A DNA stretch of 64,000 nt from Cohaesibacter intestini (GTDB lineage Bacteria; Pseudomonadota; Alphaproteobacteria; Rhizobiales; Cohaesibacteraceae), in assembly GCF_003324485.1 (NCBI RefSeq), contig NZ_QODK01000002.1, forward strand, positions 930,001 through 994,000. The letters run 5' to 3'. A model generated the notes under the pieces. That model saw only the letters and a list, made by a program, of their open reading frames with translations. It was not told where the DNA came from and did no database searches. Both the position numbers and the translations under genes were made by a program. Shown piece by piece: positions 50,676 through 63,612 of the stretch (the stretch's first letter is position 1; every line of letters starts with the position of its first letter).

Positions 50676-50848
50676 AGGGCCCGGAACTGAGGGACGCTGT
50701 TGATCTCAATTTTTTTAGTGCATCAGCAGCTTTAGTCCCTCACCTCTCGATGGGTTGATGAAATGTTGTGTCTCAATCGAATGCGAGGAATGGAAAAGCA
50801 GGCTTCTTGAAAGTCGTCCGTGCTGAAGGTCTCCAAAGGGCCGCAAAT

Positions 50849-50871
50849 GCTCTTCTTGGACCAAGAAGAGC
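50849..50871. repeat. Perfect 23 bp inverted repeat behind the catabolic operon
   Basis: GCTCTTCTTGG, one A, then CCAAGAAGAGC. It lies 55 bases past the stop of the last operon gene (50926). There is no T run behind it on the minus strand, so it is a protein-binding dyad or an mRNA 3'-end hairpin rather than a standard terminator. Confidence 0.7.
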
Positions 50872-50925
50872 GGTTTCATATGATGATGCTCCGCGTCAGT
50901 CAGCTTCTTCCATGGGCGCAGGTCA

Positions 50926-52797
50926 TCATCGCGCCAACCGTTTTAGGGCTGCTGTGCGATAGGGGGCGTTGCGGGCACCATAGCCGTTATAGCCGCCGCG
51001 TCGTTCGACCACCTCGAAGAAGAAACCATCCCCATGGGGTCGGGAATAAAGCTGCAGGAAAGAGCCGCCATTGTCATCCTGATCATAGAAAATGTTGCGC
51101 GCGCGCAAGGTTTCAATCACTTCTGGCCCCAGCTCGAATTCGGTCGCCAACTCGTCATAATAGGTTTCCGGGATTTCCAGGCTTTCAAAGCCATTGGCTG
51201 CCAGTTTTCGAGCGGTGTCGATGATATTGCCACTCAGGAAGGCAAAATGCTGCATTGATGCACCATAGCTGTCTGACAGGAACCGTCCGGCAAAGGTGCG
51301 GTGGGTGTCGACGCCATTCATCGTCAGGCGGAAACTGCCATCTGCATTTTGCAGGGAGCGGGACTGCACAAGCCCCCCCGCATCTGCCACCCCCACATCG
51401 GGCGCCTTGTTGATATTGAAGATCGAAGTGTAAAACTGGGTCCAGCTGTTGAGCTCTTCCTGTTTCATCACCTGCGCCAAATGATCGATGCGCAACAGAC
51501 CGGTGGGCTGAACATTGCTTTCATCGGTCACCGGAACAAATTCTTTCTCCCAAACCTCGCCCAGTTCGGTCTGTCGATCGAGGAAATGCAATACAGAACC
51601 ACCAACACCGCGCATCGCGGGAATGTCGAGCTCTCCAGAATGACGCTTCTGCATGAACCGTTTGGCCCCGAGTAGTTCCGAACGCACGGTCGCGGCTTCG
51701 GCATCGCCGACCATCAGGCCAATATCGCAGACGCTCGTGCCATGCATCACATAGGCGGAATGGGCATAGCCCTTCGTTTCGGAGTTGATGACGATATTAA
51801 TGCCATTTTGCTGCCAAAGCGTCACTTTCCGGGCGATATGCTTGGCAGTCGGTTTGAAGCCCAATTGTGACAGCATGGCCTCCATCGAAGGGGCGTCTTT
51901 ATCACCAGCCGCAAACTCGATGAACTCGACGCCTTCAATCTTGGCCTTCTGTGGCATGGGAGGCAGATCGACATGACAGCTTGGTTCGGATTTTCGGGCC
52001 GCATCGGCAATGACAATCAGCGCGCGATAGCCATCGAGTGCCAATTGTCGGGTCGAAGCGCGGCTCTTGTTCTCAACCAAGTCAAGACCGTAGCCATCCG
52101 AGTAGCCGGTGGCCGCGACCGCCTTGACGAAATCGAGAATGGGAAAATCCCCTTCTCCCGGCAAGGAGCGGAAGTTGCGAGACTTGTATTGAAGATCCAT
52201 GCTGACAGCAGGTGCATCGGCCAACTGGACATGAAACAGTTTGTCCGCAGGAATGGCACGGATGCTTTCAGACGAGAGGCCTCTGGCCAATGTGTGATAG
52301 CTGTCCAGCACGAGTCCGATCGCCGGATGATTGGCTCGACGCACCACTTCCCAGGCATCGCGATAATCGGAGATATGGCGCCCCCATGCGAGCGCTTCAT
52401 AGCCTACTCGCATGCCGTATTTTTGCGCCAGTTCACCAAGTTCGGTAAAATCATTGGCCATCCGGTCTACGCCACCCAGGCAGTCCGGTGAGGTGGCTGA
52501 ACAGATCAACAAAAGATCAGTGCCCAGTTCCGCCATGGCGTTGAAGCGGCGTTCAATGCGGTCAAAGGCCCGACGGCGTGATGCCTCGGGCAGGCCTTCA
52601 AAATCGAGCGCCGGTTTGAACAGCCGGATGCTCAAACCCTGATCGCGGACCATCTGACCGATTTCGGTTGGGGTGCGGCCCTGCACCGCGAAATCCTGTT
52701 CCGTGATTTCAATGCTGTCAAAGCCAGCCGCAGCAAAGGCAGCAAGCTTGTCTTCCAACGCATCGGCAACGGACAAAGTGGAAATCGAAGTCTTCAT
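50926..52797 (-). CDS. quiC: Two-domain 3-dehydroshikimate dehydratase (QuiC type, HPPD-like C-terminus)
   Basis: 623 residues. Residues 1-280 are an AP-endonuclease-2/sugar isomerase TIM barrel (FDSIEITEQDF, YEALAWGRHISDY, GLVLDSYHTLARG, HVQLADAPAV with metal-site residues). Residues about 290-620 are two glyoxalase-type modules like 4-hydroxyphenylpyruvate dioxygenase (RIDHLAQVMKQEELNSWTQFYTSIF, MQHFAFLSGNI, FFFEVVERRGGYNGYGARN). This is the architecture of bacterial QuiC1 enzymes, which convert 3-dehydroshikimate to protocatechuate. Last gene of the operon. Confidence 0.88.
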   Translation of the reverse strand: MKTSISTLSVADALEDKLAAFAAAGFDSIEITEQDFAVQGRTPTEIGQMVRDQGLSIRLFKPALDFEGLPEASRRRAFDRIERRFNAMAELGTDLLLICSATSPDCLGGVDRMANDFTELGELAQKYGMRVGYEALAWGRHISDYRDAWEVVRRANHPAIGLVLDSYHTLARGLSSESIRAIPADKLFHVQLADAPAVSMDLQYKSRNFRSLPGEGDFPILDFVKAVAATGYSDGYGLDLVENKSRASTRQLALDGYRALIVIADAARKSEPSCHVDLPPMPQKAKIEGVEFIEFAAGDKDAPSMEAMLSQLGFKPTAKHIARKVTLWQQNGINIVINSETKGYAHSAYVMHGTSVCDIGLMVGDAEAATVRSELLGAKRFMQKRHSGELDIPAMRGVGGSVLHFLDRQTELGEVWEKEFVPVTDESNVQPTGLLRIDHLAQVMKQEELNSWTQFYTSIFNINKAPDVGVADAGGLVQSRSLQNADGSFRLTMNGVDTHRTFAGRFLSDSYGASMQHFAFLSGNIIDTARKLAANGFESLEIPETYYDELATEFELGPEVIETLRARNIFYDQDDNGGSFLQLYSRPHGDGFFFEVVERRGGYNGYGARNAPYRTAALKRLAR

Positions 52798-52857
52798 TTT
52801 TCATTCCTTGCTGAACACCGGGACAGAATATCGAAAAGGGGCCGCATCCGGATCTTG

Positions 52858-54645
52858 TTAGGTGCTGGCGTGGCCACCGCTTCCATCAGGGGAATAGATG
52901 TCGAGAATGTTCCAATGGCCCGAAGTCGGAGTCGGGTTGTTGATCATCGCCACATCAATCACCGTCGGCTTGCCGCTGGCAATCGCCGCTTCAAGCGCCG
53001 GACGGAAGGCGCCAGCCGAAGTGACCCGTACGCCATCACAGCCATAGGCTCTGGCAATCGCCGCATAGTCTGGCGTTTGTTCTTGCGGGTTGTCAGCTGC
53101 GGGGAAGACCGTGCCATGGGTCAGGCCATAGTTCGACTTTTGCAGACCAGCGATAGTGCCATAGGCATTGTTATTCATGATGATCCAGATGACCGGCACA
53201 TTCTCGGCGTTGGCGGTGGCGAGCATCGCCGGATTCTGGCCAAAACCTCCATCGCCGACGAGGCTGATCACCACCCGATCAGGCGCTGCGATCTTGGCCC
53301 CGATGGCAGCTGGCGGGCCAAAGCCCATGGTGGCAAAGCCGCCGGGAATGAGGATCGAGCCCGGTGTGAAAATGTCAAACTGCTGGGCAACGCCATTCTT
53401 GTTCCAGCCCACATCGGAGGTGAGGATGGCATCGCGCGGCATGACGGTCCGCAGATCGGCCAAAATCCGTTCCGGCATCATCGGGAAGGCATCGGACTGC
53501 TGCATCTCGACATTTTGAGCGCTGAAGTTCTGGCGCTCAGTGGCGATCTGCGAGGCCCGGCCATCGGATGGACGTCCGTCGGGCAACATCTCGCGGGCCA
53601 CGCGATTGAGCACGGTGAGCGCCGCCTTCAGGTCAGCCACCGCCCCAATCTCGACCGGATAGTTGCGGCCAATTTCCTGCGGCTCGATGTCAATCTGCAT
53701 CAAGCTGGTCGCGTCTTTGCCGATATTGAAGGTGTAGTCCGGATACCAGCTGGAGCAATCAGCTTCCTTAAAGCGGGTGCCGAGCGCCAGAATCCAGTCG
53801 GCGGCCAAGGTCTGCTGGTTGGTGAATTGCATCCCCCAGAAGCCGGTCATGCCCAGCACCATCGGGTGATCATCGGGCAGCACGCCCTTGCCCATCAAGG
53901 AGAAGGAAACCGGGATCTGCATGTGATCGACAAAGGCGCGCAGCTCGTCATAGGCCTTGGACAGCGCGATGCCGCCGCCGACATGGATGATAGGTTGTTT
54001 GGCGTCTGCCAAGGTTTGAACGATCTGACGCGCTGTCGCCTCATCAATGGTTGGCTTGGCCAAGACCTTGGAGCCGGTCTTGACGCGCTCCCAGCAGGCC
54101 GGGTCAACTTTGGTGGAGAAGAAATCCATCGGCACATTGACCAGAACCGGACCGGGCTGGCCGCTTTCGGCCAAAAGGAAAGCCTTTTCGAGGATTTCGG
54201 GTAGCAGCTCCGGGGTATCGACGCGCCAAGCACGCTTAACGAAGGGGCGATAGATTTCATATTGCGCCGCATCCGCATGGAGGTTGACCTCCTGATGGGG
54301 ATGCTTGCCGTAATAATAAGACGGAATGTCGCCGGCAATCACCACCATCGGGATGCAGTCGAGCGCCGCATTGGCCACCCCGGTCGCCGCATTGGTCAGG
54401 CCGGGGGAGAGATGGCTCAGCACCACCGACGCACGGCCTGTGACACGGGCATAGCCGTCTGCGGCATGAGCGGAAACCTGCTCATGGCGAACATTGACGA
54501 ATTTGATGCTCGAGTCGGCCAAAGCGGACAGGACCGCGATGTTGGTGTGGCCGCAAAGGCCGAAAATATGTTCAATGCCGCGATATTCGAGATAATCCAC
54601 CAACTGGGGTGCATTCTCGATCAGAGTCGTTTGATCCTTTTCCAT
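52858..54645 (-). CDS. Thiamine diphosphate-dependent enzyme, acetolactate synthase-like
   Basis: 595 residues in three domains. The catalytic glutamate is in VRHEQVSAHAADGYARVTG (about residue 55); the middle domain has FSLMGKGVLPDDHP; the ThDP motif is LVGDGGFGQNPAMLATANAENVPVIWIIMNNNAYGTI (GDG to NN). Close members make or cleave C-C bonds next to a carbonyl. The N-terminus (YRGIEHIFGLCGHTNIAVL) is unlike that of sulfoacetaldehyde acetyltransferase. The start overlaps the upstream stop as TGATG, so it is made with the acylating dehydrogenase. Substrate unknown. Confidence 0.88.
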   Translation of the reverse strand: MEKDQTTLIENAPQLVDYLEYRGIEHIFGLCGHTNIAVLSALADSSIKFVNVRHEQVSAHAADGYARVTGRASVVLSHLSPGLTNAATGVANAALDCIPMVVIAGDIPSYYYGKHPHQEVNLHADAAQYEIYRPFVKRAWRVDTPELLPEILEKAFLLAESGQPGPVLVNVPMDFFSTKVDPACWERVKTGSKVLAKPTIDEATARQIVQTLADAKQPIIHVGGGIALSKAYDELRAFVDHMQIPVSFSLMGKGVLPDDHPMVLGMTGFWGMQFTNQQTLAADWILALGTRFKEADCSSWYPDYTFNIGKDATSLMQIDIEPQEIGRNYPVEIGAVADLKAALTVLNRVAREMLPDGRPSDGRASQIATERQNFSAQNVEMQQSDAFPMMPERILADLRTVMPRDAILTSDVGWNKNGVAQQFDIFTPGSILIPGGFATMGFGPPAAIGAKIAAPDRVVISLVGDGGFGQNPAMLATANAENVPVIWIIMNNNAYGTIAGLQKSNYGLTHGTVFPAADNPQEQTPDYAAIARAYGCDGVRVTSAGAFRPALEAAIASGKPTVIDVAMINNPTPTSGHWNILDIYSPDGSGGHAST

Positions 54646-56051
54646 CAGAGCACCTCTGTATTGTAAAATTCACCAAACAGTTCGGCGTCAGACGGGCGGT
54701 CTTCGGCGATTGGACGGGCAACCCAGGTGACATTCATATAATGCTTGAGGGACACATTCTCGTTGGTGATGTTGCCGCCCCAGATGCCGCAGCCGAGCGA
54801 TGAGGTCATCGGCATGCCGTTGGAGAAGGAGCCGGCATTGGCTTTTGATTGTGGCTGACGCACCATGACGCGGGAGACCGGCGCATTGGCGGCGTGACGC
54901 AGAATGCGCTCCTCATCAAAGGAATAGATGCCGCAGGAATGGCCCTTGCCGCCGACTTCATAAATTTCACGCACCATGCGCAGGGTGTCGTCAAAATCCT
55001 TGGCCCGATAGAGCGCCATGGTGACGGACAGCTTTTCACGGCTGAAAGGATGATCCTTGCCGATCTCGTCCTGCTCAACCATCAGGAATTTGCGATCGTC
55101 GGGCAGGTCAAACCCCGCAAAGTCGGCAATGGTTTTGGCCGACACAGCCACGGTTTCGACGCGACGGGAGCCATCGTCTTTCCAGAGCGCCTTGGCAAGC
55201 AGCTGTTTTTCCTCTGGCGAGCAGAGATAGCCGCCTTCGCTGATCAGCGCTGCTTTCATTTGCTCATAGACCGCATCGACGATGATCAGGTTACCATCGG
55301 CCGAACAGCCGGAACCGAAGTCGGACATTTTCGACATCCGCGAATTGGCGGCAGCCTCGGCAATGTCGGCGGTCTCGTCAATCACCATGGTGGAATTGCC
55401 TGCCCCCACGCCATAGGCCGGTTTGCCCGAGCTATAGGCCGCATGGACCATTGGTTTGCCGCCGGTGGCCAGCGTCAGATCGGCCTGACTCATCAAATAA
55501 TTGGTGCCCGGGATGGATGGCTGGGTGACACATTGGAACAGGTCTTCGGGTGCACCAACCAGTTTGCAGGCATGGCGCATGACATTGACCATTTCATTGG
55601 TTGTCGCCTTGGCGCGGGGATGGGGCGAGAAGATTACCGCATCCTTGCATTTGGCCGCATAAAGGCCGGTGACCGGCGGGGTCAATTCCGGGTTGGTGGT
55701 GGGGATGAGAGAGGCGATGACGCCTGCCGGTTTGGCGATCTTGGTCAGGCCTTTTTCTGCGTCTTCCTCGATCACACCAACGGATTTGCCACGCAAGGCA
55801 TCACGCAGAACACCGAGCACCTTGAAGCGCTTGCCTGCGCGTCCAGCGCGGTCGCCAATGCCGCTTTCATCAACGCCCATCTGGGCGATGCGGACAAAGG
55901 TTTTTTCGTTACCGCAATGCCAACCAATGGATTGTGCCAACCGGTCTACTTGTTCTTGATCCCAGTCGGCTATGGCGTCCATGGCAGCACGCGCACGGAT
56001 GATCATTGCGTCGATGGTTTCGATTTCTTCTGGTGAAATGTCACGAGCCAT
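54645..56051 (-). CDS. CoA-acylating aldehyde dehydrogenase (SauS/EutE-like)
   Basis: 468 residues. Family features are GVIASLIPTTNPELTPP, FSPHPRAKATTNEMVNVM, GGKPMVHAAYSSGKPAYGVGAGNS, and the probable catalytic cysteine in DFGSGCSADGNLI. The shape matches short acylating dehydrogenases such as those acting on sulfoacetaldehyde, acetaldehyde or succinate semialdehyde. It would turn an aldehyde made by a neighbouring enzyme into an acyl-CoA with NAD(P). The gap to the TIM-barrel gene is 29 bases. Confidence 0.88.
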   Translation of the reverse strand: MARDISPEEIETIDAMIIRARAAMDAIADWDQEQVDRLAQSIGWHCGNEKTFVRIAQMGVDESGIGDRAGRAGKRFKVLGVLRDALRGKSVGVIEEDAEKGLTKIAKPAGVIASLIPTTNPELTPPVTGLYAAKCKDAVIFSPHPRAKATTNEMVNVMRHACKLVGAPEDLFQCVTQPSIPGTNYLMSQADLTLATGGKPMVHAAYSSGKPAYGVGAGNSTMVIDETADIAEAAANSRMSKMSDFGSGCSADGNLIIVDAVYEQMKAALISEGGYLCSPEEKQLLAKALWKDDGSRRVETVAVSAKTIADFAGFDLPDDRKFLMVEQDEIGKDHPFSREKLSVTMALYRAKDFDDTLRMVREIYEVGGKGHSCGIYSFDEERILRHAANAPVSRVMVRQPQSKANAGSFSNGMPMTSSLGCGIWGGNITNENVSLKHYMNVTWVARPIAEDRPSDAELFGEFYNTEVL

Positions 56052-56080
56052 ATCGGATACTCCTGATTATCGCTGCGGCC

Positions 56081-56917
56081 TCAGGCCATTTGTTTGAACG
56101 ATGCCGGGTCGGCATCAAAGACAGAACGGGCTGCTTCAAGGCAGTTTCGGGCATGCTGCTCGGGGCCAAATTCGGCAATCCGTTTGGCATGGGGCAGCTC
56201 GATGGAAAGGGGCAGATCGGGGAAAAGATAATTGACGGCCCAGAAATCGATTGCCCCTTCGCCAGGATAAAGACGGGCATCGCGGGCTGTGTCGATCATC
56301 GCTTCGCGGGTGAAGGCCAGATCCTCGGCGTCACAGATATGGAGGAAATTGATCCATTCTGGCGGCACCTTTTCGAGTGCCAGAAGGGGGGCCTTGTTGA
56401 AATGCATATAGAGGGTGTCGACCAGCATGCCCTGATTGCGCCGACCGGTCCGTTCGAGAACTTCCATTACCTCTTCGAGCGTTGTCAGCCGAGAAAAGGC
56501 CGGGAATTCCAGATTGACCGTCAGGCCAAAGGGAGCGGCGAGATCGCAGATCTCGGCAAAGGTCTCGACGATGAATTTGCGGTCGTTGCGCACATCGGTC
56601 CATGCAGAGCAAATGACTTGCCCAGCGCCCAGCTCAGCCCCGGCTTCAAAGGCGGGCACAAAATCCTTGGGGTCAAGGCCACGCATGATGCGCATCAGCT
56701 CGATGTCAAAGCATTTCAGATCGGTGTCCGCCAGCGCCTGTTTGGTCTCGCGGATGATCTGCGGGTCAGTCGGGTTAATATCCGGCTCGCCCGCCACACC
56801 CAGATGAAACAGCCGATAGCTGACATAATCATAGCCTGTGCGGGCAGCGATATAGGTCTGTTCGGGTGGGGTCACCCCGGGAACCGTCAAATAGGACAGG
56901 GCATAGGGATGGCTCAT
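56081..56917 (-). CDS. Sugar isomerase/AP-endonuclease-like TIM-barrel protein
   Basis: 278 residues from MSHPYALSYLTVPG. The Xyl-isomerase-like TIM barrel shows FDIELMRIM, QVICSAWTDVRNDRKFIVETFAEICDLAAPFGLTVNLEFPAF, DTLYMHFNKA, FLHICDAEDL and a late PLSIELPH: the E-D-H-E metal set of IolE/IolI-like isomerases, epimerases and dehydratases. The true reaction is unknown. ATGA overlap with the aldolase gene. Confidence 0.85.
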   Translation of the reverse strand: MSHPYALSYLTVPGVTPPEQTYIAARTGYDYVSYRLFHLGVAGEPDINPTDPQIIRETKQALADTDLKCFDIELMRIMRGLDPKDFVPAFEAGAELGAGQVICSAWTDVRNDRKFIVETFAEICDLAAPFGLTVNLEFPAFSRLTTLEEVMEVLERTGRRNQGMLVDTLYMHFNKAPLLALEKVPPEWINFLHICDAEDLAFTREAMIDTARDARLYPGEGAIDFWAVNYLFPDLPLSIELPHAKRIAEFGPEQHARNCLEAARSVFDADPASFKQMA

Positions 56918-57846
56918 GACTGATCCTCCGATGATTGCAGCCAAGGGGGCGGTGGCATATGGGACATGCGACCGGGCAAGGCCCGCTCAAACAGGGCTTC
57001 GGCCTCGGCGACGGGGCCACGCAAGGCCTGCCAATTGATGCCGGTCTTGAGGCCCATTTCCTCGCAGGCATAGGCGACATCTTCGGTCGCAACATTGCCC
57101 GTTGCCATCGGCACGAAGGGACAGCCGCCAAGGCCACCCATGGCGGCGTCAAAGATCCGCACGCCAGCCTGAAGTCCGGCCACCATATTGGCCAGTCCCA
57201 GCCCGCGCGTGTCATGCAGATGCAGCGACAGGGCGGTTTCGTCGCCGATCTCGCCGCGCAACCGCTGGCATAGGTTGAAGACCTGCTGCGGATTGGCCAA
57301 GCCTGCCGTGTCGGCAATGTTGATTTCCTGCACCCCAAGCGCCGCAAAGCGCTGGGCAATGCGGGACACTTGATCCGGGTCGATATGACCTTCAAAGCCG
57401 CAGCCAAGGGCCGACTGGATGCCTGCGCGGACGGCGACGCCTTCGGACAAAGCCTTTTCGATCACCGGCAGGATGCGGGTGATGCCATCCTCGACCGAGC
57501 GGTTGGTGTTTTTCTGCGAATGGGTCTCAGAGGCGGAGACCGAAATGGACAGATGCTTGACCCCAACCGCCAAGGCCCGATCAAGGCCAGAGCCATTGAG
57601 CACCAAGGCGGTATAGACCACGCTCTCCTTTGGCTCGATGCGGTCAAACAACGCATCGGTATCGGCCATTTGCGGCACCCATTTGGGATGAACGAAGGAG
57701 CCGACCTGGATCCGCCGCACGCCAGCAGCCTCAAGATGGCCAAGGAAGTGCAGTTTTTCATCCAAGCTCAAAAGACGCTTTTCATTCTGCAGCCCGTCGC
57801 GCAGAAATTCGTCCTCGATGAGAATGTCACCTGAGAGTTTCATCAT
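56914..57846 (-). CDS. HMG-CoA lyase-like aldolase
   Basis: 310 residues of the DRE-TIM family. LRDGLQNEKRLLSLDEKL with the catalytic R-D pair, GSFVHPKWVPQMAD, SVSASETHSQKNTNRSVED, the metal histidines LHLHDTRGLG and the lyase signature GGLGGCPFVPMATGNVATED with the active cysteine are all seen. Family members split 3-hydroxyacyl-CoA esters into a keto acid and acetyl-CoA or a relative. The start is the ATG in TGATG, overlapping the DctM stop. Confidence 0.88.
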   Translation of the reverse strand: MMKLSGDILIEDEFLRDGLQNEKRLLSLDEKLHFLGHLEAAGVRRIQVGSFVHPKWVPQMADTDALFDRIEPKESVVYTALVLNGSGLDRALAVGVKHLSISVSASETHSQKNTNRSVEDGITRILPVIEKALSEGVAVRAGIQSALGCGFEGHIDPDQVSRIAQRFAALGVQEINIADTAGLANPQQVFNLCQRLRGEIGDETALSLHLHDTRGLGLANMVAGLQAGVRIFDAAMGGLGGCPFVPMATGNVATEDVAYACEEMGLKTGINWQALRGPVAEAEALFERALPGRMSHMPPPPWLQSSEDQS

Positions 57847-59120
57847 CAGAAGCCCATCATCCGAGGAAGCCATGTCACCGTGTCTGGCAGGAAGGTGATG
57901 ATGATGAGCACCAGAACTTCAACCACGAAGAAGGGCATGATGGCCTTGATCAATCGGGCCATGCCGACCCCGGCGACGCTCTCCGCCACAAAGAGGCAGA
58001 GACCAAGTGGTGGAGTAATCAGGCCGATCATCAGGTTGAAGATGACGACAATGCCGAAATGAACCGGATCGACCCCAAGCGACACGGCGATCGGATGCAG
58101 GATCGGCACCAGAACCAGCATTGCGGCGATGCCTTCAAGAAACAGGCCAACAAACAGGAACAGCAGGATGACCGCGATCAGGAAGGTGGTCTTGCTGTCG
58201 ACATTGCCCAGCACCCAGTCGGTGACCATGTTGGGAATGCGATTGTAGGTGAGGAGCCAGTTGGCGGCGGCGACGGCGGCGATGATCACCAGAATGACCG
58301 CGCTGTCGCGCATGGCGCCCGAAAAAATCTGCGGCAGGCGTTTGAAGGAAATCTTGCGATAGACAAACAGACCCAGCACCAATGCATAGCAGACCGCGAA
58401 GCTTGCCGCTTCGGTCGGCGTGACAACGCCGAGCAGGATCGAACCGACAACAAAGACTGGCATCAAGAGTGGCAGGATTCCGCCCATAATGGCGTCCCTG
58501 TTCGAGGTGCCGTGGATGTTTCTCTCACCTGAGACCGTGTCGGCCTTGACCGTCAGCATGACATAGATCGAGAGAAACACCGCCAGCAGCAAGCCGGGGA
58601 CGATACCAGCCAGAAACAGCGCGGGAACGGAGACACCAGAGACGATGAGGGCGTAAATGATGACGGGAATGGATGGAGGAATAATCGGGCCAATTACCGA
58701 GGAGGCTGCCGTGAGCGCAGCCGCAAAGGCGCGGTCATAGCCATGCTTTTCCATTTCGGGAATGAAGACCCGGCCAATGGCCGAGGTGTCGGCAACCGCC
58801 GAGCCGGACAGCCCGGCAAAGATCACCGAAGCCCAGATATTGACATGGGCAAGACCCGCACGAAACCCGCCAACCAGTACATTGGCAAAGGCGATGATGC
58901 GGCGGGTAATGCCGCTTTCGTTCATCAATTCGCCCGCCAGAATAAAGAGCGGGATTGCCAGAAGGGGATAGGAATCGAGCCCCTTGAACATTTCGGTTGC
59001 GACGATGCGCAAGGTATAAGGTGCTTCGCCTGTGGTCATGAACCAAATGAGGGCAACTAGAATGGCGAACGCGATGGGCAGCCCCAGCAACAGGCCGGAT
59101 GTCAGAATGAAAATGGTCAT
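57846..59120 (-). CDS. dctM: TRAP transporter large permease (DctM type)
   Basis: 424 residues, about twelve membrane helices. Seen are PLLAIPLFILAGELMNESGITRRIIAFANVLVG, HVNIWASVIFAGLSGSAVADTSAIG and IPPSIPVIIYALIVSG, all DctM signatures. It carries substrate with Na+ in the tripartite importer made with the two genes upstream. Overlaps dctQ by four bases. Confidence 0.94.
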   Translation of the reverse strand: MTIFILTSGLLLGLPIAFAILVALIWFMTTGEAPYTLRIVATEMFKGLDSYPLLAIPLFILAGELMNESGITRRIIAFANVLVGGFRAGLAHVNIWASVIFAGLSGSAVADTSAIGRVFIPEMEKHGYDRAFAAALTAASSVIGPIIPPSIPVIIYALIVSGVSVPALFLAGIVPGLLLAVFLSIYVMLTVKADTVSGERNIHGTSNRDAIMGGILPLLMPVFVVGSILLGVVTPTEAASFAVCYALVLGLFVYRKISFKRLPQIFSGAMRDSAVILVIIAAVAAANWLLTYNRIPNMVTDWVLGNVDSKTTFLIAVILLFLFVGLFLEGIAAMLVLVPILHPIAVSLGVDPVHFGIVVIFNLMIGLITPPLGLCLFVAESVAGVGMARLIKAIMPFFVVEVLVLIIITFLPDTVTWLPRMMGF

Positions 59121-59644
59121 GCGTCACCCTTTTCCTGAATGCGTTCAATAAAGCGAATGCCAGCGGAAATCGCCAGAATGATGCCGCCGCAGGCAATCGC
59201 GGCCTGCCAAGTTCCAACCCGCCCGAGCCATTCGAGCCAGGCCATGTCGAGGCTCTGGGCCAGCTCCTTGGCCGTACCGATAAGCCCGGAGGCTTCGATC
59301 TGCGGTCGCCGGGATGCGAAGGCAATCCCTGACAGCGTGAGGCCAATGCCGGTTGCAAGCGTGACCAGATCCATCGCGGCGAAAGTCCAGCGCCGCCATT
59401 GATCCGTCAGTATGTCCGTAACGATGGAAAAGCGAATATGTCGATCCTGCAGATATGCCAAGCCAATGCCGAACATGACCCCATAGATGGTCAGATAGAT
59501 CGGCATTTCCTCACCCCAAGCCAGAGAATGGCCAGTGGTGTAACGACGCACGGAATTGACCAAAATGATCGCAAAGACCAGAGCAATGGAAAGGCCTGCG
59601 CCAAAAGCCCAAATCCGCTGGGTAAACCGACTGATTACACGCAT
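59117..59644 (-). CDS. dctQ: TRAP transporter small permease (DctQ type)
   Basis: 175 residues from MRVISRFTQRIWAFGAG with four membrane helices. The DctQ motifs RRYTTGHSLAWGEEMPIYLTIY and RHIRFSIVTDIL are seen. Couples the binding protein to DctM. An upstream start at 59698 would add a hydrophilic tail without support. Confidence 0.88.
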   Translation of the reverse strand: MRVISRFTQRIWAFGAGLSIALVFAIILVNSVRRYTTGHSLAWGEEMPIYLTIYGVMFGIGLAYLQDRHIRFSIVTDILTDQWRRWTFAAMDLVTLATGIGLTLSGIAFASRRPQIEASGLIGTAKELAQSLDMAWLEWLGRVGTWQAAIACGGIILAISAGIRFIERIQEKGDA

Positions 59645-59711
59645 TCGATGTCTCACGATCCTTTGGGTGGGAGAGATGGGTGGCGTTTGGGCGGCCACCC
59701 ATCCTTGGGTC

Positions 59712-60728
59712 TTACTTGGTGGCAGCTTTCACAGCAGCATCAAGCTTTTCAATCCACTCGGCTTCGCCGCCCAGCTCGCCAGCCAGCCATTTTTTGACAG
59801 CTGGTTGCGCCGCATCGCGGAACTGCGCCAATTCTTCGGCGGTTGGCGAATAGACCTGCATGCCTTCGGCTTGCACGGCATTCACACCAACGGCGGTGGA
59901 GAATTGCTGAATGGAACGACCCATATTGCCTGCCACGACGGCTGCTTTCTGCACCACGGCCTGCTCGGCAGGGGAAAGGGACTGGAAGAACTCATCAGAG
60001 ATGAGCAGGAAGTCGGCTGCATAGACGTGACCGTCAAGGGTCATGTATTTTTGCAGTTTATGCAGGCCGTTATTGTAGATCACGCCGACCGGATTTTCCT
60101 GACCGTCAACCACACCTGTTGACAGAGCATTTGGCAATTCGGTCCAGGCAATCGGTGTTGGCTCGCCGCCAAGGCCCTTGACCATCTCAATATAGAGCGG
60201 GATCGGCTGGACACGGAATTTGAGGCCCTTCATATCTGCCGGGGTGCGAATTTCGCGCTCACCATTGGTGAAGTTGCGGAAGCCGGTTTCCCCGTAGGCA
60301 AGCGTACGCAGGCCGGTTTTATCCAGACAATGTGCGGCCAGTTCGCTCCCGAAGGAACCATCCAGCACGTTCCATGCCACTGGTGCAGACGGGAAGGTGT
60401 AAGGAATATCCAGCACGGATGCCGCGCGGCAGATTTTTGACATGGCACCGGAAACCATCACCACCTGGGTGAGATTGTCCTGTGCCTGAGCGACGAGTTC
60501 ATCTTCGTTGCCTAACGCACCGGCTGGGAACAACTCGACTGTCAGACCGGTTTCGCCTTCAACGATGTTTTTGAAGATTTCGGCTGCGGCGCCCTTTTTC
60601 GAGCTTTGCCAATCAGCCGGGTCAACGTGAGCGAAGCGGATGGTCTGGGCCTGTGCACTGGCAGCAACGCCCAAGCCAATGGCCAGGCCTGCAAGGGCTG
60701 ACAGGGTTTTGGTTGTGAAATTACGCAT
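59712..60728 (-). CDS. dctP: TRAP transporter substrate-binding protein (DctP type)
   Basis: 338 residues. The signal peptide MRNFTTKTLSALAGLAIGLG ends at ASAQAQ. The DctP body has RFAHVDPADWQSSKKGAAAEIFKNIVE, GETGFRNFTNGEREIRTPADMKGLKFRVQP with the arginine that binds the ligand carboxylate, and VDGQENPVGVIYNNGL. The ligand is an organic acid; a quinate/shikimate-like acid is inferred from the operon. Confidence 0.92.
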   Translation of the reverse strand: MRNFTTKTLSALAGLAIGLGVAASAQAQTIRFAHVDPADWQSSKKGAAAEIFKNIVEGETGLTVELFPAGALGNEDELVAQAQDNLTQVVMVSGAMSKICRAASVLDIPYTFPSAPVAWNVLDGSFGSELAAHCLDKTGLRTLAYGETGFRNFTNGEREIRTPADMKGLKFRVQPIPLYIEMVKGLGGEPTPIAWTELPNALSTGVVDGQENPVGVIYNNGLHKLQKYMTLDGHVYAADFLLISDEFFQSLSPAEQAVVQKAAVVAGNMGRSIQQFSTAVGVNAVQAEGMQVYSPTAEELAQFRDAAQPAVKKWLAGELGGEAEWIEKLDAAVKAATK

Positions 60729-60771
60729 GGTTCTCCTCCCATTTCGATAAAGTCAGTGTGATCTATTGATT

Positions 60772-61650
60772 TCAGGGCTTACTGTGTGCGTGCAAAAAGG
60801 CCTCACGCATCACATCTCGATCGGGGCTTTGCTCGGTGAAAAGAGCAAATGCCCTTACAGCCTGCCAGAGCGCCATGCCACCACCACCCATGGTGCGGCA
60901 TCCTTGAGCGCGCGCTGCTGCAAGCAATTCGGTTTCCATTGGAAAATAGATGATATCTGCCACCCAGGCGCCATGCGGAATGGAGGCAACAGGCAAGGGC
61001 GTTCCCGGCAGTTTTGCCATACCCACAGGGGAGGCATTGACCAGTCCGTCACAATTCTGGACTGCCTCTTGTGCATTGGTGACGACCTTGATCCGGCGCG
61101 GGTCATAATGCTTGGAAAGCTCACTGGCCAGATCTTGGGCGCGCGCTTGTTCAGGGTCACAGAGGCGCAACTCGCCCACCCCCTCGCACAGAAGACCATA
61201 AGCAGTCGCCGCGCCAGCCCCGCCAGCGCCAAGCTGCAAGACACGCTCTCGGGCAACGCCGGTCAACTCGGTTCGAAAGGCTTCGGCAAACCCCCAGATG
61301 TCGGTATTGTGGCCATACCGGCGGCCATCGCGCAGAACGACCGTGTTGACGGCACCAACGCGTTCGGCATTTTCTGACAACTCGTCAAGGAAAGGAATGA
61401 TTTCCTGCTTGCACGGATAGGTGATGTTCAAACCATCGAACCCCATCCACTCGGCGGTCTTTAGAAGGTTTTCCAGAGAAAGCTTGCAGTCGAAATCGAG
61501 GTCCAGACGACGATAGACCAGCGGGAAGCCGAGGGCTCGAGCGGCAGCCTCATGCATGGCCGGGGTACGAGATCCTGCGATTCCTGCACCGATAAGCCCA
61601 ATCAGGACGGATTTCGGCTCCGCTTGATGCTGCATTGTGTGATTGTTCAT
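60772..61650 (-). CDS. Shikimate/quinate 5-dehydrogenase-like protein
   Basis: 292 residues of the AroE family. The substrate part has IGLIGAGIAGSRTPAMHEAAARALG (the SxTP serine-threonine site), FDGLNITYPCKQEIIPFLDEL with the catalytic lysine, VGAVNTVVL and YGHNTDIWGFAEAF. The cofactor part has VLQLGAGGAGAATAYGLL, and DIIYFPMETELLAAARAQG and GGGMALWQA close it. The catabolic setting fits a quinate or shikimate dehydrogenase rather than biosynthetic AroE. First gene of the operon. Confidence 0.9.
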   Translation of the reverse strand: MNNHTMQHQAEPKSVLIGLIGAGIAGSRTPAMHEAAARALGFPLVYRRLDLDFDCKLSLENLLKTAEWMGFDGLNITYPCKQEIIPFLDELSENAERVGAVNTVVLRDGRRYGHNTDIWGFAEAFRTELTGVARERVLQLGAGGAGAATAYGLLCEGVGELRLCDPEQARAQDLASELSKHYDPRRIKVVTNAQEAVQNCDGLVNASPVGMAKLPGTPLPVASIPHGAWVADIIYFPMETELLAAARAQGCRTMGGGGMALWQAVRAFALFTEQSPDRDVMREAFLHAHSKP

Positions 61651-61671
61651 GTCTCACTCCCTGCACCATAA

Positions 61672-61718
61672 TTAACTGAACAGTTAAATCTGTCAATTGT
61701 TTTTAACTGGACAGTCCA
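61672..61718. promoter_or_regulatory. Twin TetR operators in the divergent control region
   Basis: TTAACTGAACAGTTAA (61672-61687, arms TTAACTG/CAGTTAA) and TTAACTGGACAGTCCA (61703-61718) are two copies of one dyad with starts 31 bases apart, three helical turns. They lie between the shikimate dehydrogenase start (61650) and the TetR start (61753), so one regulator could control both directions. Confidence 0.75.
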
Positions 61719-61752: not shown

Positions 61753-62418
61753 ATGACCAACCAGAAGAGCGCAGCTGCGCCCGAGCGAAAGAAGAGATGG
61801 AAGCAGGATCCGGAGGCTGTGCAAGCCAGCATTCTGGAGGCGGCTGCGACGGAGTTTGCCGAGCACGGTTTGACTGGCGCACGCGTCGATGACATTGCCG
61901 ATCGTTCTCGCTTTACCAAGCGGATGATCTATTATTATTTCAATGACAAAGAGACCCTCTATCTGCGTGTTCTGGAAGAAGCCTATCGCAAGGTACGCGG
62001 TGAGGAAGCGGCGCTGGATCTATCATCCCTGAATGCCAAACAGGCCCTGCGCAAACTGGTCGAATTCACCTTCGATCATCATCGCAAGAATGAGCCTTTC
62101 ATCCGACTGGTGATGATTGAGAATATCAACAACGGCCGTCATCTGGAAACGTCGACCCTGATTGCCAAGGTCAATGAAAGCGCTGTAGATCGGATCAATG
62201 AGATCTGCGCTCTTGGCAAAGAGGACGGAACCATCCGCGCCGACCTGTCACCGCTGGAGTTGCACTGGATGATCAGCGCGATGTCCTTTTTCAATGTCTC
62301 CAACCAGCCCAGCTTCGCCCGCGTCTTTGGCGGCACCCTGTTTTTGCCCGACGGTCAGGAACGGTTGCGTGACATGGTCGTTGAGGCTGTGCTTGCAATT
62401 GCCGAGCCTAAGCTTTGA
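61753..62418 (+). CDS. TetR-family transcriptional regulator
   Basis: 221 residues. The N-terminal helix-turn-helix is ILEAAATEFAEHGLTGARVDDIADRSRFTKRMIYYYFNDKETLYLRVLEEAY. The C-terminal ligand domain (about 80-220) with FIRLVMIENINNGRHLETS resembles the RutR-like branch. It is divergent from the ten-gene catabolic operon with shared operators, so it likely represses that operon until an intermediate binds. Confidence 0.93.
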   Translation: MTNQKSAAAPERKKRWKQDPEAVQASILEAAATEFAEHGLTGARVDDIADRSRFTKRMIYYYFNDKETLYLRVLEEAYRKVRGEEAALDLSSLNAKQALRKLVEFTFDHHRKNEPFIRLVMIENINNGRHLETSTLIAKVNESAVDRINEICALGKEDGTIRADLSPLELHWMISAMSFFNVSNQPSFARVFGGTLFLPDGQERLRDMVVEAVLAIAEPKL

Positions 62419-63537: not shown

Positions 63538-63612
63538 TGGTGGGCGTAACTGGGATTGAACCAGTGACCCCTTCGATGTCAACGAAGTGCTCTCCCGCTG
63601 AGCTATACGCCC
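63538..63612 (-). tRNA. tRNA-Val (anticodon GAC)
   Basis: The acceptor GGGCGTA pairs with TACGCCC; the D arm is GCTCAGCGGGAGAGC; the anticodon arm is CTTCG TTGACAT CGAAG with GAC at 63578-63580; the T arm is ACTGG TTCAATC CCAGT. The discriminator A is at 63541 and CCA is encoded (63538-63540). All stems close fully. It lies near a CpdR-like gene. Confidence 0.96.

Follow-up and report, generated by a model that had tools for sequence, protein, structure and literature searches.

Which acid does a catabolic operon of Cohaesibacter intestini degrade, and do its enzymes belong to a single pathway? The operon lies in a window of 64,000 nucleotides (contig NZ_QODK01000002.1, positions 930,001 to 994,000), and its open reading frames and family searches place nine structural, co-directional genes on the minus strand, from 61650 to 50926. 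In order, they encode a shikimate/quinate dehydrogenase-like enzyme (SDH), the three proteins DctP, DctQ and DctM of a tripartite ATP-independent periplasmic (TRAP) transporter, a 3-hydroxy-3-methylglutaryl-CoA lyase-like protein (HMGL), a TIM barrel, an acylating aldehyde dehydrogenase (ALDH), a thiamine diphosphate (ThDP) enzyme and a QuiC-like fusion; these are the families that an earlier note on this DNA had named. Plants contain quinate and shikimate in abundance, and textbooks have bacteria degrade both acids through protocatechuate and O2-dependent ring cleavage. Our analysis leans towards a different fate, in which the operon would import quinate and/or shikimate and degrade them by a non-aromatic, oxygen-independent route to acetyl-CoA and 2-oxoglutarate.

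The evidence comes first from conserved neighbourhoods. When GTDB genomes were scanned for the ThDP enzyme, 343 relatives came up, and neighbourhoods were taken from the best 80 of these 343; the resulting set comprises 83 loci chosen by their ThDP gene (50-86% identity), many with incomplete flanks. ALDH is present in 79 of them, the TIM barrel in 77, a vicinal oxygen chelate (VOC) domain in 67, a citryl-CoA lyase (CCL) in 45, SDH in 44 and HMGL in 30, and the 3-dehydroquinate dehydratases AroQ and AroD lie no more than 12 kb from the ThDP gene in 14 and 4 loci, respectively. The recurring set thus combines an SDH-type or other dehydrogenase, a metal-binding TIM barrel, the ThDP enzyme, an acyl-CoA-forming step (ALDH or CoA-transferase) and a retro-Claisen lyase. 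The order seen in the window, [TetR] SDH-TRAP-HMGL-TIM-ALDH-ThDP-QuiC, occurs in full in genera such as Rhodobium, Aliiruegeria, Tropicimonas and Cohaesibacter and in shortened versions in further genomes, and many Rhodobacteraceae share a second layout, TRAP-QuiC-SDH-c4-(Gfo/Idh, c13, Gfo/Idh)-TIM-ALDH-ThDP. In Azoarcus KH32C, a VOC gene, a dehydratase-like TIM barrel, a CoA-transferase, CCL, ThDP, a shikimate dehydrogenase and AroD stand in one run, and a TIM barrel of the type found in the window (P0006) lies 14 kb away. The four middle enzymes, which the earlier note had set apart as not belonging, are the conserved core of these loci. The note's link to shikimate or quinate, with the middle block as a branch of its own, is supported: the block travels with SDH, and AroQ or AroD accompanies it in a smaller number of loci. 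Its view that the first and last genes make protocatechuate is not supported. The comparison could have tied the core to a described pathway, and none emerged.

The lyase slot is the most informative position of the core. Gene c4 of the second layout encodes a citryl-CoA lyase (NF004864) with a citrate-synthase fold, and these proteins score 434-461 bits against a cut-off of 261. Across the 83 loci, counted without regard to kinship, 29 carry HMGL only, 44 CCL only and one both; no proteobacterial locus in the set has the two together, and HMGL and CCL were exchanged at least four times along the ThDP tree. The apparent exceptions L076 and L079 have their CCL elsewhere in the genome, directly beside a QuiC-type VOC gene. 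The HMG-CoA lyase catalytic residues R25, D26, H218, H220, C251 and N260 are retained across the HMGL-like family, and CCL conserves His/His/Asp at 106/154/209 plus an Arg, which align with the residues that serve catalysis in citrate synthase. Since two unrelated lyases fill one slot, and one of them has citrate-synthase-like residues, their common substrate should be a citrate-like CoA ester, that is, a 3-hydroxy-3-carboxy-acyl-CoA with a tertiary alcohol. Quinate and 3-dehydroquinate (DHQ) carry just such a tertiary alcohol-carboxylate at C1. Both families share acetyl-CoA-releasing retro-Claisen cleavage with the known HMG-CoA and citryl-CoA lyases; what differs here is the context of ring catabolism, and that the two stand in for one another in one pathway. 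The preceding step is exchangeable as well, as a class III CoA-transferase replaces the acylating ALDH in L080-L083, alongside CCL.

The remaining core enzymes are less well served by existing names. ALDH, the ThDP enzyme and the QuiC-like protein all score under curated cut-offs, and the names usually given to such proteins are best read with caution. ALDH does not reach the SauS (sulfoacetaldehyde dehydrogenase) equivalog cut-off, and a SauS/taurine-type reading of ALDH and the ThDP enzyme was dropped on account of such scores. The E-D-H-E metal ligands of the TIM barrel are retained in 74-75 of 75 homologues, and a search with its predicted structure (pLDDT 93) placed IolI, Lmo2234 and the QuiC1 dehydratase domain nearest and IolE further down, so that the protein could act either as a dehydratase or as an isomerase. 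A GHxN loop is common to the ThDP family and the genome's own IolD, to which the window's protein (P0008) is 25% identical; the loop is not found in the genome's acetolactate synthase (ALS). For the entry step, SDH scores above the cut-off of its dehydrogenase family (PRK12549), and its nearest structures are 3jyo (the Corynebacterium glutamicum quinate/shikimate dehydrogenase) and 2nlo. An Asp follows its strand beta-2 (LRLCDPEQ), at the place where the housekeeping AroE (C1:867827) has an NRT motif, which is consistent with the use of NAD+.

From these parts, we infer the following substrate, intermediates, regiochemistry and products. The TRAP transporter would import the hydroaromatic acid, and SDH would oxidize quinate to DHQ; shikimate would enter as 3-dehydroshikimate, to be hydrated to DHQ by the housekeeping AroQ, of which the genome holds one. 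The TIM barrel would then strip the C5 hydroxyl of DHQ, as IolE does with keto-inositol, to give 1-hydroxy-3,4-dioxocyclohexane-1-carboxylate, and the ThDP enzyme would hydrolytically cleave the C3-C4 bond, by analogy with IolD and cyclohexane-1,2-dione hydrolase, to give OHC-CH2-C(OH)(COO-)-CH2-CH2-COO-. The aldehyde is placed at C3 because, of the two cleavage directions, only this one yields a substrate for the lyase. ALDH would convert this semialdehyde to homocitryl-CoA, and HMGL would split the latter into acetyl-CoA and 2-oxoglutarate. The net reaction, quinate + CoA + 2 NAD+ -> acetyl-CoA + 2-oxoglutarate + 2 NADH + 2 H+, balances for C, H and O as well as in redox terms.

Several observations weigh against this route. 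The ThDP enzyme reaches 233 bits with the IolD equivalog model, far from the cut-off of 715, and given that failure its hydrolase activity is an analogy. The lyase substrate could be citryl-CoA and not homocitryl-CoA. Twelve loci carry an HpaI-type aldolase (cluster c16), mostly downstream of the ThDP gene, which might mean that the product is a 4-hydroxy-2-oxo acid. The Desulfobulbaceae locus L050 has no SDH and carries Gfo/Idh/MocA dehydrogenases instead, so the substrate range may be wider. The genome UASB270 lacks both the TIM barrel and CCL in a genome-wide search that did not extend to HMGL; its variant is incomplete or different. Finally, the route leaves the VOC domain of the QuiC-like protein unexplained.

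The strongest alternative is that the same enzyme logic acts mainly on another hydroaromatic or cyclitol acid, or yields, in place of 2-oxoglutarate, citryl-CoA or 4-hydroxy-2-oxoglutarate (with a TIM barrel that isomerizes and does not dehydrate its substrate). Entry dehydrogenases vary across the loci among SDH, Gfo/Idh/MocA, short-chain and pyrroloquinoline quinone (PQQ)-dependent types, the isomerase IolI has the nearest fold to that of the TIM barrel, and the recurrent aldolase points the same way. We nevertheless regard this as unlikely, though a serious contender: SDH and AroQ or AroD recur beside the core, quinate has the tertiary alcohol-carboxylate that CCL and HMGL require, and a route with dehydration leaves every product accounted for.

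Less probable still is the view of the earlier note, in which the first and last genes, SDH and QuiC, turn shikimate or quinate into protocatechuate and the middle four form an unrelated second branch. C. glutamicum QsuB and Pseudomonas putida QuiC1 are genuine dehydratases (PMC7442255), and the window's protein is homologous to QuiC and keeps most of the metal ligands. Its 530 bits, however, fall short of the cut-off of 1200, and mapping on the QuiC1 active-site residues (PMC7442255) revealed the substitutions R64L and E239D in the dehydratase domain, the other ligands being retained. With E239D counted as kept, all four metal ligands are present in 14 of 25 proteins from HMGL-type loci versus 1 of 40 from CCL-type loci; this leaves 39 of the 40 CCL-type operons with a dead dehydratase domain, although the operon and the VOC domain persist. 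The earlier note saw no genes for protocatechuate ring cleavage in the window, and this holds for the whole genome: at 99.4% completeness it contains no intradiol dioxygenase (PF00775) and no LigB-type protocatechuate dioxygenase, its sole LigB-family protein being of the 4,5-dihydroxyphenylalanine (DOPA)-extradiol dioxygenase type. Among 49 genomes with the ThDP gene, the completeness of the metagenome-assembled genomes (MAGs) not being established, an adjacent PcaHG-like pair occurs in 19 and LigA in 7, and the other 23 lack both. The case for a protocatechuate branch is weak.

In the QuiC-like genes of the CCL-type operons L028-L078, the dehydratase domain has lost ligands, several copies are truncated and the VOC triad is intact; their annotation as 3-dehydroshikimate dehydratase is probably mistaken. 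The His-His-Glu triad of the VOC domain, which resembles 4-hydroxyphenylpyruvate dioxygenase (HPPD), is retained in 23 of 25 HMGL-type and 39 of 40 CCL-type proteins, and the domain is a separate gene in Azoarcus. Aerobe genomes without it at the locus carry it elsewhere, and no VOC or QuiC homologue was found genome-wide in UASB270 or in two MAGs, one of Desulfobulbaceae and one of Rhodospirillales. Judged by this pattern, it is apparently the VOC domain of QuiC that selection has kept in the second layout. The domain also appears tied to aerobic life, seemingly as an accessory in aerobes. A fuller reading, to which we commit only tentatively and which we hold to be somewhat doubtful as a whole, is that of a complete O2-independent, non-aromatic route, modular at the CoA-ester and lyase steps, in which the HPPD-like domain would be catalytic in aerobes independently of protocatechuate.

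A further alternative makes the core the end of a meta-cleavage pathway, in which the ThDP enzyme decarboxylates 4-carboxy-4-hydroxy-2-oxoadipate to citrate semialdehyde, which then passes through citryl-CoA to acetyl-CoA and oxaloacetate. It is chemically sound and suits the literal name citryl-CoA lyase, but we rejected it as very improbable, as this genome lacks LigAB, LigA occurs in few carrier genomes, and SDH, AroQ or AroD and the TIM barrel would be left without a role; moreover, the ThDP/ALDH core is present in UASB270 and the Desulfobulbaceae MAG, both presumed anaerobes by the groups to which they belong. That the genes are a chance or loosely linked set, for example sulfoacetaldehyde metabolism (a SauS-like ALDH) beside leucine degradation (HMGL), would fit the best match of each middle gene to a family of another pathway, yet deserves almost no credence given the sub-threshold scores and the conserved synteny, the same blocks being far from chance because they recur in dozens of genomes, distant taxa among them.

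The proposed oxygen-free route has partial counterparts among known systems. Myo-inositol catabolism (IolG, IolE, IolD) uses a dehydrogenase, a metal-dependent TIM-barrel dehydratase that yields a cyclic 1,2-dione and a ring-opening ThDP hydrolase, the roles predicted here for SDH, the TIM barrel and the ThDP enzyme. The TIM barrel agrees with this superfamily in fold and metal ligands, and the ThDP enzyme shares the GHxN loop with IolD; the operon described here lacks IolB, IolC and IolJ, ends in a CoA retro-Claisen lyase, and has a carboxylated ring as its predicted substrate. A true IolD is encoded elsewhere in the genome (G000:C3:523307-525148, 803 bits), and inositol catabolism is probably separate from the operon. 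With the quinate/shikimate pathway through protocatechuate to beta-ketoadipate (QuiABC, QsuABCD), the operon shares the SDH-type dehydrogenase, the QuiC-like fusion and, in related loci, AroQ or AroD, but it has the extra ThDP/ALDH/lyase core and an altered or dead dehydratase domain in a genome without known protocatechuate cleavage. Brune and Schink reportedly described an anaerobic hydroaromatic degradation without aromatic intermediates, and to our knowledge no genes have been assigned to it. If the proposed route is correct, five enzymes would lead to central metabolites without O2 or loss of carbon, which could explain the long-debated use of these acids by anaerobes; it would also give functions to conserved genes that many Rhodobacteraceae carry under the names shikimate dehydrogenase, citryl-CoA lyase and thiamine pyrophosphate-binding protein. 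The anaerobic degraders of Brune and Schink 1992, as cited in PMC9041414, use hydroaromatic acids without O2, as proposed here. The cyclohexane-1,2-dione hydrolase of Azoarcus is a ThDP enzyme of the decarboxylase superfamily and breaks a C-C bond in a cyclic 1,2-dione (PMC12247030), and its structure 2pgn is among the structure matches of the ThDP enzyme; the two are related in sequence, and its substrate and gene context are different. If the proposed route holds, the QuiC C-terminal domain, whose role was stated to be unknown and which had no activity on protocatechuate (PMC7442255), would gain a first handle.

The features of the operon are collected in the table. The earlier note had counted ten genes; the operon is real, with nine structural genes, and the sole candidate for a tenth is the divergent TetR gene, which has equivalents in the same position in L001, L002, L006, L009, L020 and L022. 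The coupling of most junctions by stop/start overlaps was confirmed by measurement, with 4-nt overlaps at DctQ/DctM and HMGL/TIM (where the ATG of the TIM barrel gene overlaps the HMGL stop) and a 1-nt overlap at ALDH/ThDP. The DctM/HMGL junction overlaps or abuts, and an internal ATG at 57846 is a possible true start of the HMGL-like gene; the remaining gaps measure 13-60 nt. In the divergent intergenic region of 102 nt, TTGACA-17-AATTAT on the minus strand lies under two TTAACTG palindromes, an arrangement consistent with a single TetR-controlled operon.

Table. Features of the operon and its flanks, in window coordinates.
Feature	Position	Strand	Basis or remark
Terminator-like hairpin, downstream of the last gene	50848..50872	-	11 pairs; minus strand without a pronounced T-run
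QuiC-like fusion of a TIM-barrel dehydratase domain (R64L, E239D) with an HPPD-like VOC domain	50926..52797	-	VOC His-His-Glu triad intact
ThDP enzyme (predicted hydrolase of a cyclic 1,2-dione)	52858..54645	-	ALS-like; under the cut-off of all 25 families shown
CoA-acylating aldehyde dehydrogenase	54645..56051	-	NF047625 (SauS) 461 bits, under cut-off 600; AdhE/EutE-type structures
Xylose-isomerase-like TIM barrel (predicted 3-dehydroquinate dehydratase to 1,2-dione)	56081..56917	-	PF01261; E-D-H-E metal site
HMG-CoA-lyase-like retro-Claisen lyase (predicted homocitryl-CoA lyase)	56914..57873	-	NF004283 309 bits, cut-off 246
TRAP large permease DctM	57846..59120	-	PF06808, TIGR00786 407 bits
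TRAP small permease DctQ	59117..59698	-	PF04290; GTG start
TRAP solute-binding protein DctP	59712..60728	-	PF03480
Shikimate/quinate dehydrogenase-like oxidoreductase (putative entry step)	60772..61650	-	PRK12549 385 bits, cut-off 235
Putative operon promoter and operator region	61668..61718	-	-35 TTGACA 61696-61691, -10 AATTAT 61673-61668
Putative operators, palindromes TTAACTG-AA-CAGTTAA and TTAACTG-GA-CAGTCCA	61672-61687 and 61703-61718		overlap the promoter
TetR-family regulator, divergent	61753..62418	+	PF00440/PF17938

Within the window's genus, the ThDP gene is present in 8 of 18 genomes. The window's copy is 86% identical to that of Rhodobium orientis and 71-78% identical to those of the other seven congeners, and this higher identity outside the genus suggests horizontal acquisition. 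A tRNA-Val(gac) gene lies at 63538-63612 on the minus strand, about 1.1 kb past the TetR gene, and is a possible integration site. In the class of the Thiobacillus MAG G049, the pathway is rare, as a search of 369 genomes found it only in G049 itself.

The open-access literature was searched for quinate with citryl-CoA lyase, homocitryl-CoA, Propionivibrio and ThDP/dione chemistry; no description of the route was found, which is weak evidence of absence.

Further neighbours were observed at individual loci. The HpaI-type aldolase lies directly downstream of the ThDP gene at L057:11774-12538, L076:11807-12577 and L079:11765-12544. Cluster c13 (L053:5721-6395, plus strand) comprises proteins of about 220 aa in 17 loci, including L030, L033, L050 and L055, located between two Gfo/Idh/MocA dehydrogenase genes and mostly in CCL-type operons; they have no Pfam or NCBIfam match and look, by eye, cupin- or IolB-like. 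In the actinobacterial loci L082 and L083 (ThDP 50-52% identity), the ThDP gene, a CoA-transferase and CCL lie near a PQQ-dependent dehydrogenase, and in L082 a shikimate dehydrogenase adjoins genes for an ABC transporter of the branched-chain type. An acyl-CoA dehydrogenase and an IclR regulator occur near the pathway's TIM barrel or ThDP gene at L111:3329-9842 (the Azoarcus KH32C plasmid, also with an electron-transfer flavoprotein and a CoA-transferase), L014:13833-15825 and L080:16889-18061, and might feed other cyclohexane carboxylates into the pathway.

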